Notes under the pieces: model-generated
What the model was told of the DNA's origin: nothing
The model's database searches: none
Seen by the model: only the letters and a program-made list of their open reading frames with translations
In this document: piece after piece, positions 19,859 through 41,387 of the stretch
How the letters are laid out: every line of letters starts with the position of its first letter
How positions within the stretch are numbered: position 1 is the stretch's first letter
Origin: Actinomycetospora chibensis
GTDB lineage: Bacteria; Actinomycetota; Actinomycetes; Mycobacteriales; Pseudonocardiaceae
DNA length: 64,000 nucleotides
Assembly (NCBI RefSeq): GCF_028737215.1
Contig: NZ_JAQZAM010000010.1
Span: 124,001-188,000 of the forward strand
Direction of reading: 5' to 3'
Translations under genes and position numbers: made by a program

Positions 19859-22570
19859 CTACGGGGCCGACCGCGTGAGGTCGTCGCGGTCCTGCGGTGC
19901 CGGCGTGTCCGGCGCCTCGTGGCGACCACCCTCCGGGCCGGGGGTCGCGGGACGCGGCGGGGCCACCGTGAGCGTCACGTCCACCGGGCCGGCGGTGCCG
20001 TCGACGACGACCTGCTCGGTGACCGGCGCGAAGCCGCTCGCGGTGAGCATGTGCCGCCCGGGCGCCAGGTCGTCGAGCTGGAAGCGGCCGTCGGCACCGG
20101 TGACCGCCGAGGCCACCACGCCGCCGTCGCGTCCGACGAGGACGACCAGCGACTCGGACACGGGCGCCCCGCCCGAGGCCCGCACGGCCCCGGCGAGCGT
20201 GTAGCGCGCCACCGGCACCGTCACGTCCGCCCTGCCCCCACCGTCGCCGACCTCGACCCGCGTGGCCCGCGGCGCGCGCCCGGGAGCGAGGACGGTGACC
20301 GTGTAGATCCCGGCCGCGACCTCGCCGCCCTCCCAGACGCCCTCGGCGTCGCTGCGGTGCACGCCGACGACACCGCCGGTGGGGTCGGTGACGGTCACGG
20401 TGGCGCCGGCGACGCCCGTGCCATCGGGCTCGGTGACCCGCCCGCCCAGGGTCGCCGCGCGGGCGAGGGCCACGTCGCGGCGCACGGGGACGCCGTCCAC
20501 GGTGACCAGCTCGGCGAAGGGCCGGCGCCGCGGCGAGCTCGCGATGAGCACGTAGGTCCCGGATGCGGGCGCCCGCAGGACGAAGCCGCCGGCGGGGTCG
20601 AGATCCGTGCGCTCCACCGGGGCGCCGTCCAGGCCGTGGAGCGAGACGGTCACCTCGTCCTCCGCCTCGACCGTGGCCCCGGTCGTGCCGGTGACGTGGC
20701 CGTGCACGGTCGGTCCCGTGGAGCGGCGCGGCGCGGGGCTCGGCGTGTCGGCCGCGCTCGGCGGTCCCCACCCGGGCTCGGCGTCGTGGCGGGACGGCCC
20801 GGCGGCCGCCCCCGCCGGGACGGGCGGCGCGGAGGCCGTGGTGTCCAGGGCCGCTGCCCCGGCGGTCGGCCCGCCGACGGCCGCCCCGGTCGTGGTGGGG
20901 GTGGCCGCCTGCTCCTCGTCGCGGGCCTGGATGCCCGAGACCGTGCGCAGCGGCAGCTCCCGCATGAACCAGATGAGCACGAAGCCGATCGCCACCACGC
21001 AGGCGGCGACGAGGAACACGAGGTCCATCGAGTCCGCGAACCCGACGAGGAACGGCTCGGCGAGGCGGGGGTCCATGCGCTGCAGCACCGAGGAGTCCTG
21101 CACGACCTGCGCCGCGCCCGTCACCGGGTTCAGCGCGACGGCGTTGGCCGGGTCGGCCGCCACCGCAGGGTCCGCGGCCGCGGCCTGGAACGCCGGGGTG
21201 CCGACGGCGGCGGCGAACGCCGTCCGGATGTTGTCGCCGACGGTGGAGAACAGGATCGACAGGAAGACCGCGACACCGAGCGTGCCGCCCATCTGCCGGA
21301 AGAACGTGGCCGACGCCGTCGCGACGCCCATGTCCTTGGCCGGCACCGCGTTCTGCACCGCGAGCACGAGGGTCTGCATGCACAGGCCGACGCCCAGCCC
21401 GAAGATCGCCATGAGGACGGCGACCTCGCCGTAGGGCGTGTCCGCATGCAGCCGCAGGTGGAACAGCACCAGGCCGACCGTCATGAGGCCGAGGCCGATC
21501 ACCGGGAAGATCTTGTAGCGGCCCGTCCGGGAGGTGAGCTGGCCGGAGAGGATCGAGGACACCATCAGGCCGCCGACCAGCGGCAGCATCTCCAGGCCCG
21601 CCTGCGTCGGCGAGGAGCCGGTGACGATCTGGAGGTACTGCGGGACGAGCGCGATGCCGCCGAACAGCCCGATCCCGGTGATGATCGCGATGATCGAGGT
21701 CAGGCTGAACACCGAGTTGTTGAACAGCCGCAGCGGGAGCACGGCGTCGTCGCCGTAGGCGCGCTCGGCGAGGAGGAACGAGACCAGCCCGACCGCCGCG
21801 ACGACGTAGCAGACGATCGCCGACGTCGAGGTCCAGCCCCACTCCCGGCCCTGCTCCGCGACGATGAGGATCGGCACGAGCGTGACCGCGAGGGCGATCG
21901 CGCCGGGGAAGTCGATGCGGTGGTCGCGGCGGGTGTGCGGCAGGTTGAGCACCCGGAAGACGACGAAGAACGCGACGATGCCGATGGGCACGTTGACGAG
22001 GAAGACCCAGCGCCAGCCGGTGATGCCGAAGATCGTGGTCTGGCCCGCGAGGAACCCGCCGATCACGGGGCCGAGCACGCTCGACGTCCCGAACACGGCG
22101 AGGAAGAAACCCTGGTACCGGGCGCGCTCCCGCGGCGGGACGATGTCACCGATGATCGTGAGCGCGAGGCTCATCAGGCCGCCGGCGCCGAGCCCCTGGA
22201 TCGCGCGGTACGCGGCGAGCTCGTACATCGAGGTCGCGATGGTGCACAGCACCGAGCCGACGACGAAGATCCCGATCGCGGAGAGGAAGAACGGCTTGCG
22301 CCCGTAGAGGTCGGAGAGCTTGCCGTAGAGCGGGGTCGAGATCGTGGCCGTGAGCAGGTAGGCCGTCGTCGCCCAGGCCTGCAGGTTGAGGCCCTGGAGG
22401 TCGTCGGCGATCGTGCGGATCGAGGTCGCGACGATGTTCTGGTCGAGCGCGGCCAGGAACATCCCGAGCATCAGCCCGGAGAGGATGGCGAGGATCTGCC
22501 GGTGGGTGAAGCCGGTGCTGCTCGCCGCGGTGGCGGCTGCCGGCGGAGCCGGGGCAGCGGTGGTGCTCAT
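19859..22570 (-). CDS. DHA2-family MFS exporter with three C-terminal carboxypeptidase-regulatory-like modules
   Basis: Residues about 25-545 are a 14-helix drug/proton antiporter of the EmrB/QacA type, with ALDQNIVATSIRTIADDL in helix 1 and GKLSDLYGRKPFFL in the loop after helix 2. An Ala/Pro-rich linker (about 550-617) leads to three ~80-residue beta-sandwich modules at about 618-704, 705-788 and 789-868, each with a G.V..-DG..V..A.V.V...G pattern and ending DVAL or DVTL. In this transporter class both termini are cytoplasmic, so the modules should lie inside the cell. The start ATG at 22570 overlaps marR-like gene by 4 nt. Export of a hydrophobic toxicant under the upstream regulator is likely; the tail's role is unknown. 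Confidence 0.92.
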   Translation of the reverse strand: MSTTAAPAPPAAATAASSTGFTHRQILAILSGLMLGMFLAALDQNIVATSIRTIADDLQGLNLQAWATTAYLLTATISTPLYGKLSDLYGRKPFFLSAIGIFVVGSVLCTIATSMYELAAYRAIQGLGAGGLMSLALTIIGDIVPPRERARYQGFFLAVFGTSSVLGPVIGGFLAGQTTIFGITGWRWVFLVNVPIGIVAFFVVFRVLNLPHTRRDHRIDFPGAIALAVTLVPILIVAEQGREWGWTSTSAIVCYVVAAVGLVSFLLAERAYGDDAVLPLRLFNNSVFSLTSIIAIITGIGLFGGIALVPQYLQIVTGSSPTQAGLEMLPLVGGLMVSSILSGQLTSRTGRYKIFPVIGLGLMTVGLVLFHLRLHADTPYGEVAVLMAIFGLGVGLCMQTLVLAVQNAVPAKDMGVATASATFFRQMGGTLGVAVFLSILFSTVGDNIRTAFAAAVGTPAFQAAAADPAVAADPANAVALNPVTGAAQVVQDSSVLQRMDPRLAEPFLVGFADSMDLVFLVAACVVAIGFVLIWFMRELPLRTVSGIQARDEEQAATPTTTGAAVGGPTAGAAALDTTASAPPVPAGAAAGPSRHDAEPGWGPPSAADTPSPAPRRSTGPTVHGHVTGTTGATVEAEDEVTVSLHGLDGAPVERTDLDPAGGFVLRAPASGTYVLIASSPRRRPFAELVTVDGVPVRRDVALARAATLGGRVTEPDGTGVAGATVTVTDPTGGVVGVHRSDAEGVWEGGEVAAGIYTVTVLAPGRAPRATRVEVGDGGGRADVTVPVARYTLAGAVRASGGAPVSESLVVLVGRDGGVVASAVTGADGRFQLDDLAPGRHMLTASGFAPVTEQVVVDGTAGPVDVTLTVAPPRPATPGPEGGRHEAPDTPAPQDRDDLTRSAP

Positions 22571-23091
22571 GAAGCCTCCGGGGGAGCCAGCACGGGCGAG
22601 GACGCCGCGCTGGAGAGGTGGTGGTTCTCGAAATCGGTGGTCAGCCGGTCGAGGAGCTCGACGAGCCGCAGGCGGTCGGCCTCGTCCCAGTGCGCGGTGA
22701 GCGCCCCGATCTCGCGGTTGCGACGGTCGCGGTTGGCCTGGAAGACGCGCAGGCCCTCGTCGGTGGCGGCGAGCAGGGTGGCCCGCCCGTCGTCGGGGTC
22801 GGGACGTCGCTCGACGAGACCGGCCCGGACGAGGCCGGCGACCTGCCGGCTGACGGTGGACGGGTCGGAGTGCACCGACTCGGCGAGCGCGTTGGAGCGC
22901 CGGGGTCCCTCGAGCACGAGGCGGGCGAGCAGGACGTAGGCCGCCCGCTCGACACCGTCCGGGCCGACGGCCTTGCCGGCCTTCGCCCGCTCGACCGCCC
23001 GCATCAGGCGGATCATCTGGTGGCCCAGGCGGTCCGAGACCAGCCAGCGGTCGTCCACCCCCGGCGGTGCCGGGAGCCGCGTGGAATCCAT
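22567..23091 (-). CDS. MarR-family transcriptional regulator
   Basis: The 174-residue protein has the winged-helix core VLEGPRRSNALAESVHSDPS, then TVSRQVAGLVRAGLVERR and the wing DPDDGRATLLAATDEG, all typical of MarR. It is co-transcribed with, and overlaps by 4 nt, the MFS exporter it probably represses, a common arrangement in which the exported compound is the inducer. The ATG at 23091 has GGAG seven bases upstream. Candidate operator repeats surround the start region. Confidence 0.94.
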   Translation of the reverse strand: MDSTRLPAPPGVDDRWLVSDRLGHQMIRLMRAVERAKAGKAVGPDGVERAAYVLLARLVLEGPRRSNALAESVHSDPSTVSRQVAGLVRAGLVERRPDPDDGRATLLAATDEGLRVFQANRDRRNREIGALTAHWDEADRLRLVELLDRLTTDFENHHLSSAASSPVLAPPEAS

Positions 23092-35175: not shown

Positions 35176-36150
35176 GTGGACGGACAGGAACCGATCATGA
35201 TCTTCGGTCGGGTCACGCGGAGCGACGGCGCCCCGGTGCCCGGCGCCGCGCTGACGCTGTGCGACCTCTCCGGTGACCAGCTCGACCGCGCCGCCGCGGA
35301 CGAGGGCGGGCACTTCCAGCTCGTGCCGCCGACCGGCGGGACCTACCTCGTCATCTGCGCGTCCTCGACCCATCAGCCGCACGCCTCGCTGGTCGCCGTC
35401 GCCGACCGCCCGCTGCGCCACGACGTCGGGCTCTCCGGCGGCGGGGCCTCGCTCGGCGGCACCGTCGGGGTGCGCCACGGGGCAGGGACCAACGGGGCGT
35501 CCGAGGCCGGCAACGTCCGCGGGTGGGACGACGTCGTGCTCACCCTCACCGACGTGCGCGGCGCCGTCGTCGCCGTGACCCGCTCGGGCAGCGACGGCGG
35601 CTACCGCTTCTCCGACCTCACCGAGGGCACCTACACGCTGACCGCCGCGGCGCCGCGCCTCGCGCCGGTCGCCGAGACCGTCCGCGTCCCCGGCGAGGGC
35701 CACGTGACCCACGATGTCGCGCTGGCCACCCGCACCCAGCTCTCCGGCACCGTCCGCTCGGCCGGCGCCGGGCGTCCCGTCGCCGAGGCCCTGGCCACCC
35801 TGGTCAGCGAGGACGGCCACGTCGTCGGCTCGCGTGTCACCGGCGAGGACGGTTCGTTCCGCTTCGACGACGTCGCGCACGGCGTCTACACGATCACCGC
35901 GAGCGGCTACGCCCCCGTGGCCTCGGAGATCGAGATCGGACCGGGCCACCCGTCCGACGTGGTGCTGAGCCTGGTGCCGCCCGCCGTCGACGGTGCGCCG
36001 TCGCGCCCGGCCGCGCCACCCGGTGGCGACGGGGCGGCCGCGGGCAACGGCGACGGCGCCACCGGTGGGCGCCACGTCCACCACCTCGACACCGACGACG
36101 TCGCCGGGACGCCGCGGACCGACAGCCAGGCCGGCGGCGAGCCGCGGTGA
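35176..36150 (+). CDS. stand-alone protein of three carboxypeptidase-regulatory-like modules
   Basis: The 324-residue product consists of three ~85-105-residue beta-sandwich modules (about 10-95, 95-200, 200-285), each opening like MIFGRVTRSDGAPVPGAALT or LSGTVRSAG and closing with a short hydrophobic strand such as HDVAL. A low-complexity Gly/Ala/Asp tail follows. There is no signal peptide, lipobox or membrane segment, so it is predicted to be cytoplasmic, unlike most CnaB-type proteins. A later ATG at 35197 is also possible. It is immediately upstream of the YceI fusion and probably co-transcribed. The module order closely mirrors the tail of the MFS exporter at 19859. Confidence 0.82.
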   Translation: MDGQEPIMIFGRVTRSDGAPVPGAALTLCDLSGDQLDRAAADEGGHFQLVPPTGGTYLVICASSTHQPHASLVAVADRPLRHDVGLSGGGASLGGTVGVRHGAGTNGASEAGNVRGWDDVVLTLTDVRGAVVAVTRSGSDGGYRFSDLTEGTYTLTAAAPRLAPVAETVRVPGEGHVTHDVALATRTQLSGTVRSAGAGRPVAEALATLVSEDGHVVGSRVTGEDGSFRFDDVAHGVYTITASGYAPVASEIEIGPGHPSDVVLSLVPPAVDGAPSRPAAPPGGDGAAAGNGDGATGGRHVHHLDTDDVAGTPRTDSQAGGEPR

Positions 36151-36188: not shown

Positions 36189-37043
36189 ATGGGGGAGCTC
36201 GACCATCTCTCGCAGCGCACGGCGGAGACGGCTTCCGGCGCACCCCGGGGCGATGGTCAGGTTCGTGGTCTCGCCGTGACGAGCGACGGCTGGCCCGTGC
36301 CGTTCGCCGTCGTCACGGTGATCGACGCGTCCGGCACCCAGGTCGGCGGCGCGTCGATACGCGGGGACGGCACGTTCGAGGTCGAGGGCCTGCCCTCGGG
36401 GCCGGTCACCGTGATCACCTCGGCGGTCGGGCACTCCCCGGCGGCGCGCCCGCTGTCCGGGCCGGGCGACCTGGGACGCGTGGTCCTGACGCGCTCCGGT
36501 GCGCTGCGCCTGCCCGCCCCGGGGCGCTGGGAGATCGATCCCGTCCACTCGCGCATCGCCGCGTCGGCGTTCCACCTGGGCATCACCAAGGTCCACGGAC
36601 GCCTGCGGAGCTTCTCCGGGGCGATCGAGATGGGCGCCGACCTCGCAGGGACGCGGGTGCACGCCGCCATCGACCCGGCGAGCGTCGACACCGACGACGA
36701 CACCCGCGACCAGCACCTGCGCGCCGGCGACTTCCTCGACGTCCTCGCGTTCCCGCGCATCGAGTTCTCCTCGACCGCGATCACCGCCCGGAGTCCCGAC
36801 CACTGGACGATGACCGGCGACCTGGTGCTCAAGGGCGTGCGCAACACCGTCGCCCTCGACGTCGTCTACCACGGTTCCGGGCCGGACCTCTGGGGCGGCG
36901 AGCGCGCGGGCTTCAGCGCGACCACCCAGCTCTCGCGCGACGACTTCGACATCCGCTGGAACCAGTCGGTGATCGCCGGCATCTTCGCCGTCGGCCGCAC
37001 CCTGCGCATCGAGATCGACATCGAGGCGGTGCGCACGCCCTGA
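36189..37043 (+). CDS. YceI-family protein with N-terminal carboxypeptidase-regulatory-like module
   Basis: Residues about 22-105 are one module (GLAVTSDGWPVPFAVVTVID...); about 110-284 form a YceI lipocalin-like domain with WEIDPVHSRIAASAFHLGITKVHGR, DQHLRAGDFLDVLAFPRIEF and the C-terminal SVIAGIFAVGRTLRIEI. YceI proteins bind isoprenoid-like lipids. ATG at 36189 has GGGGAG seven bases upstream; an in-frame GTG at 36147 would overlap the previous stop (GTGA) and is an alternative. No signal peptide is seen, so the protein is probably cytoplasmic. Confidence 0.9.
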   Translation: MGELDHLSQRTAETASGAPRGDGQVRGLAVTSDGWPVPFAVVTVIDASGTQVGGASIRGDGTFEVEGLPSGPVTVITSAVGHSPAARPLSGPGDLGRVVLTRSGALRLPAPGRWEIDPVHSRIAASAFHLGITKVHGRLRSFSGAIEMGADLAGTRVHAAIDPASVDTDDDTRDQHLRAGDFLDVLAFPRIEFSSTAITARSPDHWTMTGDLVLKGVRNTVALDVVYHGSGPDLWGGERAGFSATTQLSRDDFDIRWNQSVIAGIFAVGRTLRIEIDIEAVRTP

Positions 37044-38165: not shown

Positions 38166-39269
38166 TCAGGTCGGCACCGGCTCGTGGTCGCTCTCGCCCG
38201 GGGCGGCGCCGAGCACGAGGTCGTGGACGACCGGGCGGCCGTCGACCGAGATCAGCACGGCGCGGGGCCGGGCGGCCCGTCCTCCCATGCGGTGCGGGGT
38301 GCAGACCAGCATGAAGTCCCCGGACCCCGGCGGATCGAGCTGGTAGGTGCCGTCGACCTCGGTGTGCACGCGCGCGACCTGCTCCCCACCGTCCGAGACC
38401 AGGGTCAGCACCGCCGGGCGGGCGTGGCCGTCGAGCCCGAGGACGCGACCGTGCACGGGACCGGCCGTCACGCCGGCGTCCCCGTCGGCCTCCTCGTGGG
38501 CGTCGGCGTCGGGGACCTCCTCGCGCGGGTCGGGGGCGAACTGCGGCTCGCCGGCGGTGAGCCCCCCGCTGTTGGCCCGCGTCACGACGGCCATCAGCAC
38601 GATCGCGACCAGGACGAGCACCACCGGAGCCACGAACGACCAGTCCGGGGCGAAGCGCTGGACCACGGCGTTGCCGCCCGCGGCGGCGATCACGGCGAGC
38701 AGGCGCAGCGGCGAGTTCCAGTTCCACGTGAAGGGCTTGTGCAGCTCCACGAGGCTCGAGACCCAGTTGGTGATCGTCCCGGACATGAAGCTCGTCGGGG
38801 TCCCGGCCGGACCGACGTAACGCACGGCCGCCGCCTGGACGCCCATCGCCAGCCCCGAGCCGACGACGAGCACGACGACCTTCCACTGGACGAGCGGACT
38901 GTCCCCGTCGACCCCGTACCAGAACCCGCCGAGCAGCAGGAGCAGCGCGAGCTCGAACGTCAGCGTCGCGCCGACGGCGTTGCGCCACGGCCAGCGACGC
39001 ATCGCCAGCCCGCAGAACACGGTGCCCGCGATCAGACCGCCGCAGTAGCCGGCGATGGCGCAGACGTTGTCGAGGATCTGCGGCCAGTCGCCCTGGCCGA
39101 GGCCCAGCCCCAGCATGACGAGGTTGCCGGTCATCGTGCTGGCGAAGACCTGGTTGAAGGCGAAGTACGTGACGACGTCGATCGCACCCGCGGCAGCGGT
39201 GAGGACGACGGTCACGGCGCTGAGCGTGCGGGGACGCTGCTCGGGTTCGTCGAATCCGGTCACGCACAC
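38166..39269 (-). CDS. YoaK/DUF1275 membrane protein with C-terminal carboxypeptidase-regulatory-like module
   Basis: Residues about 10-225 hold six to seven membrane helices with the DUF1275 motif ASTMTGNLVMLGLGLGQGDW and TPTSFMSGTITNWV. An acidic linker (DPREEVPDADAHEEAD) precedes a module at about 270-367 (GPVHGRVLGLDGHARPAVLT... VVHDLVL). This family is uncharacterised. The GTG start at 39269 has no clear ribosome site; GTG at 39263 is an alternative. It is convergent with the DUF559-type gene and followed upstream by the MFS exporter gene on the same strand. Confidence 0.85.
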   Translation of the reverse strand: MCVTGFDEPEQRPRTLSAVTVVLTAAAGAIDVVTYFAFNQVFASTMTGNLVMLGLGLGQGDWPQILDNVCAIAGYCGGLIAGTVFCGLAMRRWPWRNAVGATLTFELALLLLLGGFWYGVDGDSPLVQWKVVVLVVGSGLAMGVQAAAVRYVGPAGTPTSFMSGTITNWVSSLVELHKPFTWNWNSPLRLLAVIAAAGGNAVVQRFAPDWSFVAPVVLVLVAIVLMAVVTRANSGGLTAGEPQFAPDPREEVPDADAHEEADGDAGVTAGPVHGRVLGLDGHARPAVLTLVSDGGEQVARVHTEVDGTYQLDPPGSGDFMLVCTPHRMGGRAARPRAVLISVDGRPVVHDLVLGAAPGESDHEPVPT

Positions 39270-39353: not shown

Positions 39354-41387
39354 TCAGCGCACGGCCGCACGCTCGCGCAGCACGACGTCGACGTGCACCG
39401 GCGACCCGTTGACCGTCACCCGGGTGGCGGCCGGGGCCACCGCACCGCGCCCGCGGGGCGTCGCGATCACCAGGTAGTCCCCGGAGCGCCCGCCGGCGCT
39501 GAGCGCGAAGCGGCCCTCGTCGTCGGTCTCCGCGCGGTCGGCCTCGTGTCCGTGGGCGTCGACGAGCGTCAGCACGGCCGCCGCCGGCGCCTCGTCGGGC
39601 GCCAGGATGCGGCCCGCGACGGCGACGGAACGAACGTCCACGGGGTCACCCCGGTCCTCCTCCCCCAGCGCCTCGCCGGACGATTCGGCCTCCCGCACCG
39701 ACGGCTTCGCGCTGTCGAACAGCGACGCGATCGCGGCGACGAGACAGCAGACCGCGGCGAAGCCGAGCGCCAGGAACAGGCCGTCGGCGAAGGGGCCGGA
39801 GATCAGCTCCGGGAAGAAGCTGCGGCCGGTGAGGAACCCCGCCTGCTGCGGGCCCACCTGCGACAGCACGCCGGGCCCGAGCAGCGTCTCGATCGGGTTG
39901 TAGCCGAGCAGGGCGGCGAACAGCGTGCTCACCGGCGGGAGCTCGGCGATGCGGCCCGCGACGTCGGCGGGCACGCCCTGCCCGGTCAGCCCGGTGAACA
40001 GCGCCGCGGGCAGCGTCGAGGCGAGGCCCAGGATCAGCATCGAGAAGAAGATGCCGATCGAGAGGACGGTGGCGCCGTTCTGGAACGTCGCCGTCATCCC
40101 CGCGGCCGCGCCGCGCTGGCGGGCGGGGACGCTGTTCATGATCGAGGCGCGGTTCGGTGACGAGAACAGGCCCATCGCGAGCCCGTTGACCGCGAGCAGG
40201 ATCGCGAACAGGGAGTACGGGAAGTCGACCGGCAGGAACCCCATGAGCAGGAAGCTCACCGCGGCGACGAGCATGCCGCCGGCGGCGTACCAGCGGGCGC
40301 CGTGCCGATCGGAGAGCACGCCGGAGAGCGGTCCCGCGACGAGGAAGCCGATGGTCAGCGGGACCATGTAGATGCCGGCCCACAGCGGCGTCGACTCGTA
40401 GTCGTAGCCGTGGCGCGGCAGCCAGATGCCCTGCAGCCAGATGATCAGGATGAACTGCAGGCCACCGCGCCCGAGCGCGGAGAGCAGGTTCGCGATGTTC
40501 CCAGCCGTGAACGAGCGGATCCCGAACAGCGACAGGTGGAACATCGGGTGCGGGACGCGCCGCTCGACGGCGACGAAGACCGCGAGGACGACGACGCCGC
40601 CGATGAGGCAGACGAGGACCGTCGGGCTCGTCCAGCCCATGACGTGCCCGCCGTAGGGCTGGATGCCGTAGGTGATGCCCATCAGCACCGCGACGAGGCC
40701 GACGGCGAAGGTGACGTTGCCCCACCAGTCGATGCGGCCCTCGTGGCGCTCGCTGGTCTCCCGGAGCTTGGACCAGGCCCAGATCGTGCCGCCCACGCCG
40801 ATGGGCACCGAGACGATGAAGACGAGGTGCCAGGCCACCGGGGCCAGCACCCCGCCGATGATCAGCCCGAGGAACGACCCGGCGATGGCGGCGATCGAGT
40901 TGATGCCGAGCGCCAGGCCGCGCTGGTGGGCCGGGAACGCGTCGGTGAGGATCGCCGTGGAGTTCGCGAGCAGCAGCGCGCCGCCGATGCCCTGCAGGAC
41001 GCGCATGGAGATCAGCCAGATCGCGCCCGCGTCGCCCTTGAGCCACGTGACGGCCAGCAGGATCGAGAACACGGTGAACACCGCGAACCCGAGCGTGTAC
41101 ATCCGGGTCCGGCCGAACATGTCGCCCACGCGGCCGAAGGTGACGACGAGGACGGCCGTCACCACCAGGTAGCCCATGATCAGCCAGAGCAGGTAGCTGA
41201 TGTTCTCGGGCCGCAGCGGGTCGAGCGCGATGCCGCGGAAGATGTCCGGGAGTGCGATGAGCAGGATCGACATGTTGATCGTCACGATCAGCACGCCGAG
41301 CGTGGTGTTGGTCAGCGCGATCCACCTGTAGCGGGGCCCCAGGTGCGCCACCGCCGGCGCGACCGCCGCGTCCGCCCTCGTCGTCAC
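39354..41387 (-). CDS. DHA2-family MFS exporter with one C-terminal carboxypeptidase-regulatory-like module
   Basis: The first ~560 residues are a 14-helix exporter beginning LTNTTLGVLIVTINMSILLIALPDIF, with VVTFGRVGDMFGRTRMYTLGF after helix 2. After a Ser/Glu-rich linker, residues ~590-677 form one module (VAGRILAPDEAPAAAVLTLV... VHVDVVL). GTG at 41387 has GGAGG five bases upstream. It lies 84 nt upstream of the YoaK gene on the same strand, so the two may form one operon. A hydrophobic substrate is likely but not shown. Confidence 0.9.
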   Translation of the reverse strand: MTTRADAAVAPAVAHLGPRYRWIALTNTTLGVLIVTINMSILLIALPDIFRGIALDPLRPENISYLLWLIMGYLVVTAVLVVTFGRVGDMFGRTRMYTLGFAVFTVFSILLAVTWLKGDAGAIWLISMRVLQGIGGALLLANSTAILTDAFPAHQRGLALGINSIAAIAGSFLGLIIGGVLAPVAWHLVFIVSVPIGVGGTIWAWSKLRETSERHEGRIDWWGNVTFAVGLVAVLMGITYGIQPYGGHVMGWTSPTVLVCLIGGVVVLAVFVAVERRVPHPMFHLSLFGIRSFTAGNIANLLSALGRGGLQFILIIWLQGIWLPRHGYDYESTPLWAGIYMVPLTIGFLVAGPLSGVLSDRHGARWYAAGGMLVAAVSFLLMGFLPVDFPYSLFAILLAVNGLAMGLFSSPNRASIMNSVPARQRGAAAGMTATFQNGATVLSIGIFFSMLILGLASTLPAALFTGLTGQGVPADVAGRIAELPPVSTLFAALLGYNPIETLLGPGVLSQVGPQQAGFLTGRSFFPELISGPFADGLFLALGFAAVCCLVAAIASLFDSAKPSVREAESSGEALGEEDRGDPVDVRSVAVAGRILAPDEAPAAAVLTLVDAHGHEADRAETDDEGRFALSAGGRSGDYLVIATPRGRGAVAPAATRVTVNGSPVHVDVVLRERAAVR

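Follow-up and report, generated by a model that had tools for sequence, protein, structure and literature searches.

A widespread, apparently cytosolic triple-module tail on DHA2 exporters of actinomycetes and its genetically linked module-YceI partner

MFS drug pumps are usually viewed as stand-alone membrane proteins, EmrAB-type assemblies aside. A 64,000-nucleotide stretch of the Actinomycetospora chibensis genome (hereafter, the window) encodes a pump of this kind that carries three tandem modules at its C-terminus, and a group of genes 13 kb away bears modules of the same family. The locus raises the question of what such a tail does on a drug exporter and how it came to be there.

The pump is encoded by a clean open reading frame of 903 codons on the minus strand (positions 19859-22570), and comprises a 14-TM DHA2 core, a disordered linker and three PF13620 modules (Table 1). 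The original prediction of an MFS exporter with a triple tail behind an Ala/Pro linker is thus borne out by the exact reading frame, by Pfam and NCBIfam matches and by the AlphaFold2 (AF2) model. The core matches MFS_1 (E 2.5e-52, residues 33-432) and, above the cut-off, TIGR00711 efflux_EmrB (262.1 bits vs 230.2, E 9e-78, residues 29-535), and the stop codon of an upstream marR gene shares the sequence ATGA with the pump start, a 4-bp overlap within one operon, so that the assignment as an EmrB-type pump beside MarR also holds. A marR gene lies upstream of the pump in most relatives as well, and this MarR-linked DHA2 exporter is presumably proton-coupled. The OtrB model gives E 4e-148 and 494.4 bits, well under its naming cut-off of 999, which rules out the pump being the OtrB oxytetracycline exporter; on sequence grounds, the pump is placed within the OtrB/Tcr3 branch of DHA2 and is not OtrB proper. 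It shares the 14-TM core with the EmrB (TIGR00711) and OtrB/Tcr3 tetracycline pumps, and the 563 positions of the OtrB model end before its tail. The AF2 model contains 14 long helices, and the closest solved folds to the full model are EmrB, MHAS2168 (the Rv1410 homologue, second-best), EfpA and QacA. The linker, of about 60 amino acids, has pLDDT values below 50 at residues 561-615, and its amino-acid divergence is at or near the top in most within-genus comparisons; the window and A. callitridis pumps share 97% identity. Among the matches listed from a plasmid collection, the pump core alone was covered, with no tail.

Table 1. Features of the pump locus and of the module genes in the window
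Feature	Positions	Strand	Details and evidence
MarR regulator	22567..23091	-	Upstream of pump; Pfam MarR E 3.4e-11
14-TM DHA2 (EmrB/OtrB-type) MFS core	20936..22570	-	Residues 1-545; Pfam/NCBIfam, AF2
Linker	20717..20935	-	Residues 546-618; helix 546-556, then disordered Ala/Pro/Gly/Thr-rich stretch; AF2
Tail module 1 (PF13620)	20453..20716	-	Residues about 619-706; Pfam, trees, AF2 tail model
Tail module 2 (PF13620)	20207..20452	-	Residues about 707-788; Pfam, trees, VIA Z 12.7 to carboxypeptidase D
Tail module 3 (PF13620)	19961..20206	-	Residues about 789-870; Pfam, trees, Z 12.0 to CnaB2, 12.2 to carboxypeptidase D
Free triple-module protein	35176..36150	+	Three PF13620 stretches; position-matched tail counterpart; tail trees
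Module-YceI protein	36189..37043	+	Pfam YceI E 6.5e-39, PF13620 E 6.8e-9
DUF1275 membrane protein with one C-terminal module	38166..39269	-	Pfam DUF1275 E 2.1e-25
Second MFS pump ('B' family) with one C-terminal module	39354..41387	-	Pfam; loci L147, L152, L153

PF13620 (CarboxypepD_reg) matches the pump in three stretches with E 8.7e-28 (96.9 bits vs 32.3); when the modules are searched singly, modules 2 and 3 exceed the cut-off and module 1 falls slightly under it, at 30.7 bits. The AF2 model of the tail has a pLDDT of 92.9, and a single module superposes on a carboxypeptidase D domain with Z 12.7 and 1.6 A over 78 residues, in agreement with a transthyretin/prealbumin-like fold. Pilin and adhesin stalks resemble the complete triple only at the level of individual domains, with large rmsd. 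A sequence-profile comparison places NOMO2, SdrD and UafA nearest among solved chains and carboxypeptidases lower in the list; fold and profile are thus shared with PF13620 and with SdrD-B/CnaB-type domains. The 265-residue tail contains no Lys and its modules no Cys, and therefore neither isopeptide nor disulfide bonds can form in the modules. Accordingly, CnaB-type isopeptide cross-linking was rejected for the tail: the modules are of the PF13620/transthyretin-like kind and lack that chemistry. The invariant columns of the tail are chiefly Gly, with a few Pro, Asp, Thr, Ala and Leu, and within the genus the modules are under purifying selection (dN/dS 0.08-0.71).

On which side of the membrane the tail lies is suggested by the core. 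The core has 14 TM helices, TM2 and TM3 are joined by a motif-A-type loop (GKLSDLYGRK), and TM14 is followed by basic residues; these features point to an inside C-terminus, so that, as judged from model and sequence, the tail should be cytosolic. Such a placement, itself predicted, is unusual for the transthyretin-like domain class: the solved PF13620/CnaB-type relatives are mostly extracellular or ER-lumenal, whereas this tail is apparently cytosolic and devoid of Lys. A role as an extracellular cell-wall spacer is disfavoured by the predicted topology.

The tail is common among related exporters. The genome scan yielded at least 565 relatives; among the best 80, on which the tail counts rest with kinship ignored, 64 carry it and 16 are tailless, so the possibility that most orthologues lack the tail is rejected. 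All but one of the 64 have three modules, the remaining one ending at a contig edge. These best relatives include members of Pseudonocardia, Actinokineospora, Amycolatopsis, Kutzneria, Nocardia, Streptomyces and Actinopolymorpha. A triple-module match, nearly always in a long frame, was found in 83 of 150 sampled genomes (29 of 46 genera) of the window's family and in 40 of 247 genomes of the same class. One class genus, probably Streptomyces because its tails branch with Streptomyces tails, usually has two triple-module copies. In the tree of pump cores, the tail fits one gain and few losses (parsimony, 5 changes); the tailed clade has moderate support (SH-aLRT 93), and the tailless pumps of the same branch are largely basal, with a few apparent losses. 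Taken at the level of sequence, the pump-tail fusion is old and spread across actinomycete families. An assembly artefact is likewise rejected by the 64 tailed relatives and by the genus itself, where the free triple occurs in all 18 genomes and a pump-tail match in 17, the exception (G014) being an 83% complete assembly in 640 contigs.

The four module genes 13 kb from the pump encode the free triple-module protein, the module-YceI protein, the DUF1275 protein and the one-module MFS pump; PF13620 and profile matches confirm that, as predicted, all belong to the same module family. The DUF1275 module (271-358) scores 42.8 bits with a profile made from the other modules of the window, and genome G013 contains two such DUF1275-module genes in tandem (L155). 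Besides the one in the window, the genome encodes three further one-module MFS pumps (C33:243026, C6:20300 and C53:145489), and the modules of all four fall with module 1 of the triple and with the YceI and DUF1275 modules.

The partner that stands out is the module-YceI gene, whose product matches PF04264 with 134.1 bits against a cut-off of 23.7. The window protein has no N-terminal hydrophobic signal, and the YceI partners start straight with the module, with no signal peptide; an alternative GTG start at 36147 would overlap the stop codon of the preceding free triple gene. A YceI gene lies directly 3' of the tailed pump in 27 of 64 loci and of none of the 16 tailless pumps (counts that ignore kinship); in 26 of the 27 the module is in the same frame, and the overlap is typically 4 bp. 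No YceI gene occurs within about 6 kb of the other 37 tailed pumps. In the sample of 247 class genomes, which were not picked for linkage and in which YceI and triple-module positions were compared by hand, each of the 22 top-scoring module-YceI genes has a triple module no more than about 400 bp upstream. This set includes the window's own gene; for those from outside the window, identity is 43-50%. A further 11-12 lower-scoring module-YceI genes in the class sample do not adjoin a triple module, and neither does any of the 11 module-less YceI matches listed in tail-bearing genomes. The triple module is genetically linked to module-YceI, and as gene order the pairing is facultative. In the window, module-YceI is preceded by the free triple; elsewhere the preceding triple mostly belongs to a tailed pump, from either the OtrB-like family or that of the window's second MFS pump. 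In the module tree, the YceI modules cluster together (98) and, with the single-module tails, lie on the module-1 side of a supported split (96). The A. chibensis genome has a second module-YceI paralogue (L006, C55:72344-73105), which has diverged and does not adjoin a triple module, and similar genes occur in several class genomes; at L041:8709-9571, module and YceI domain occupy two separate reading frames, perhaps owing to a frameshift.

How are the pump tail and the free triple related? The modules of the two proteins do mirror each other one by one, as predicted: in a tree of 101 modules, those of positions 1, 2 and 3 form separate groups, the free protein's included, which implies that the triple was inherited as a unit. 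Identity between corresponding modules is 51% for the third, 36% for the first and 37% for the second. The G.YTITASG-type strand proposed for both third modules is present in the free protein (GVYTITASG); the pump has GRHMLTASG. Duplication and fusion were also proposed to have spread the family. Its presence on several membrane proteins is confirmed; the age of the fusion does not agree with a local spread. An origin of the fusion within this lineage, by duplication of a local free module protein and its joining to the pump, is, in our judgement, very unlikely, even though the pump tail and the free triple lie about 13-30 kb apart in those genus genomes that have both on one contig, and a clade uniting the local tail with the free protein is not rejected by the AU test (p 0.295 and 0.159, at a cost of 3-10 log units). 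The fused form is found over many genera and families; outside the genus, module-YceI usually follows a tailed pump gene; and the free protein is nearest to the pump tails of other genera, with which it groups in three tail trees (98/90, 80/90 and 97/96; the 80/90 tree was built without row L145, which is 16% filled and was included in the 98/90 tree). It is 50-52% identical to tails of Pseudonocardiales pump-YceI operons outside the genus and about 42% to the local pump tail. These relationships favour a direction from pump tail to free protein through loss of the pump, and disfavour both a local duplication as the source of the two proteins and capture of a free module. That the window's free triple shares one origin with the other sampled free triples is rejected (AU p 8e-5), suggesting that free forms arose more than once.

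Several loci show other arrangements of these genes. At L147, L152 and L153, a 'B'-family pump with a triple tail is followed by a free triple-module gene; in L152 and L153 the two directly overlap, and in L147 pump tail, free triple and module-YceI follow in succession. L149:871-3198 contains a tailless pump and, after 60 bp, a two-module gene, possibly a split or frameshifted pump-tail gene. At L150 and L151, a triple-module protein with a long low-complexity N-terminus is preceded by a one-module gene, and no pump was found nearby.

YceI proteins are known to bind prenyl lipids, quinones and hydrophobic drugs, and the drug and lipid binders characterized in this family act outside the cytoplasm. 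They are lipocalin-like barrels whose crystal structures carry octaprenyl ligands, and the secreted family member BcnA captures antibiotics (PMC5350466). In mycobacteria, a periplasmic handover of lipid from the MFS pump Rv1410 to the carrier LprG has been proposed (PMC10576003). Because of these binding properties, the Rv1410-LprG precedent and the gene linkage, we tentatively propose, with a probability of roughly 0.42, that the tail is a cytosolic docking arm that brings a YceI lipid or drug carrier to the pump. In this scheme, the cytosolic C-terminus of the DHA2 exporter would consist of a flexible linker followed by three transthyretin-like modules arranged as a rod; the tail and the YceI protein would both be cytosolic and dock to each other through their modules; and the YceI barrel would collect or buffer lipophilic substrate near the inner opening of the pump. 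The free triple would most likely be the tail of a former pump-tail-YceI operon minus the pump, and could serve as a soluble adaptor; in Actinomycetospora, the pump and the YceI unit are 13 kb or more apart. The extracytoplasmic action of the known YceI binders counts against the proposal. Its extension to an actinomycete-wide export system, in which cytosolic module-YceI sits on a DHA2 pump by way of matching modules and supplies it with lipophilic substrate from inside, is rather doubtful.

Two other functions deserve consideration. The tail might act as a scaffold or oligomerization arm that clusters module proteins, or as a tether to a cytosolic partner, with no handover of substrate. The same module on two MFS families, DUF1275 and YceI, with four genes within about 6 kb, would suit such a role, as would the common use of transthyretin-like and pilin-type domains as interaction and spacer units; we nevertheless regard it as somewhat improbable, given that it does not predict the tight, specific linkage between triple module and module-YceI. 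Less probable still, and in our view unlikely, is a regulatory or sensing role in which the tail gates the pump, the YceI neighbours being merely co-regulated. Transthyretin folds do bind small hydrophobic molecules, and the tail has been kept over long times even though tailless pumps of the same branch exist, but the mostly Gly invariant columns contain no conserved polar cluster hinting at a ligand site, and the modules match PF13620 rather than the transthyretin hormone-binding family.

The docking arm thus remains our preferred reading, and it can be set against known systems. Like TT1927b and BcnA, the partner has a full YceI domain; unlike BcnA, which is secreted (PMC5350466), it has an N-terminal module and no signal peptide and is encoded with a pump. 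The mycobacterial LprG-Rv1410 pair likewise combines a DHA2-type MFS pump with a lipid-binding partner, a role proposed here for module-YceI, but LprG is a periplasmic lipoprotein (PMC10576003), whereas the YceI protein, from an unrelated carrier family, is proposed to work from the cytosol. The pump represents a known family with a widespread, predicted cytosolic arm and a partner gene that are both undescribed in the literature searched; neither the pump-tail fusion nor the pump/YceI pair is described in the titles and abstracts listed, a partial coverage that proves little.

For the evolution of the family, the favoured order is the reverse of the one originally predicted: the tail is probably the older state, and free triple modules seem to have originated repeatedly from within the tail family. 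The tail, the free module protein and module-YceI form a small soluble set that makes docking directly testable. If the proposal is correct, a docked module-YceI/pump complex would be the cytosolic equivalent of the LprG-Rv1410 pair of the periplasm, and multidrug efflux in antibiotic producers would gain a loading or scaffolding step through the conserved cytosolic arm and its lipid-binding partner.
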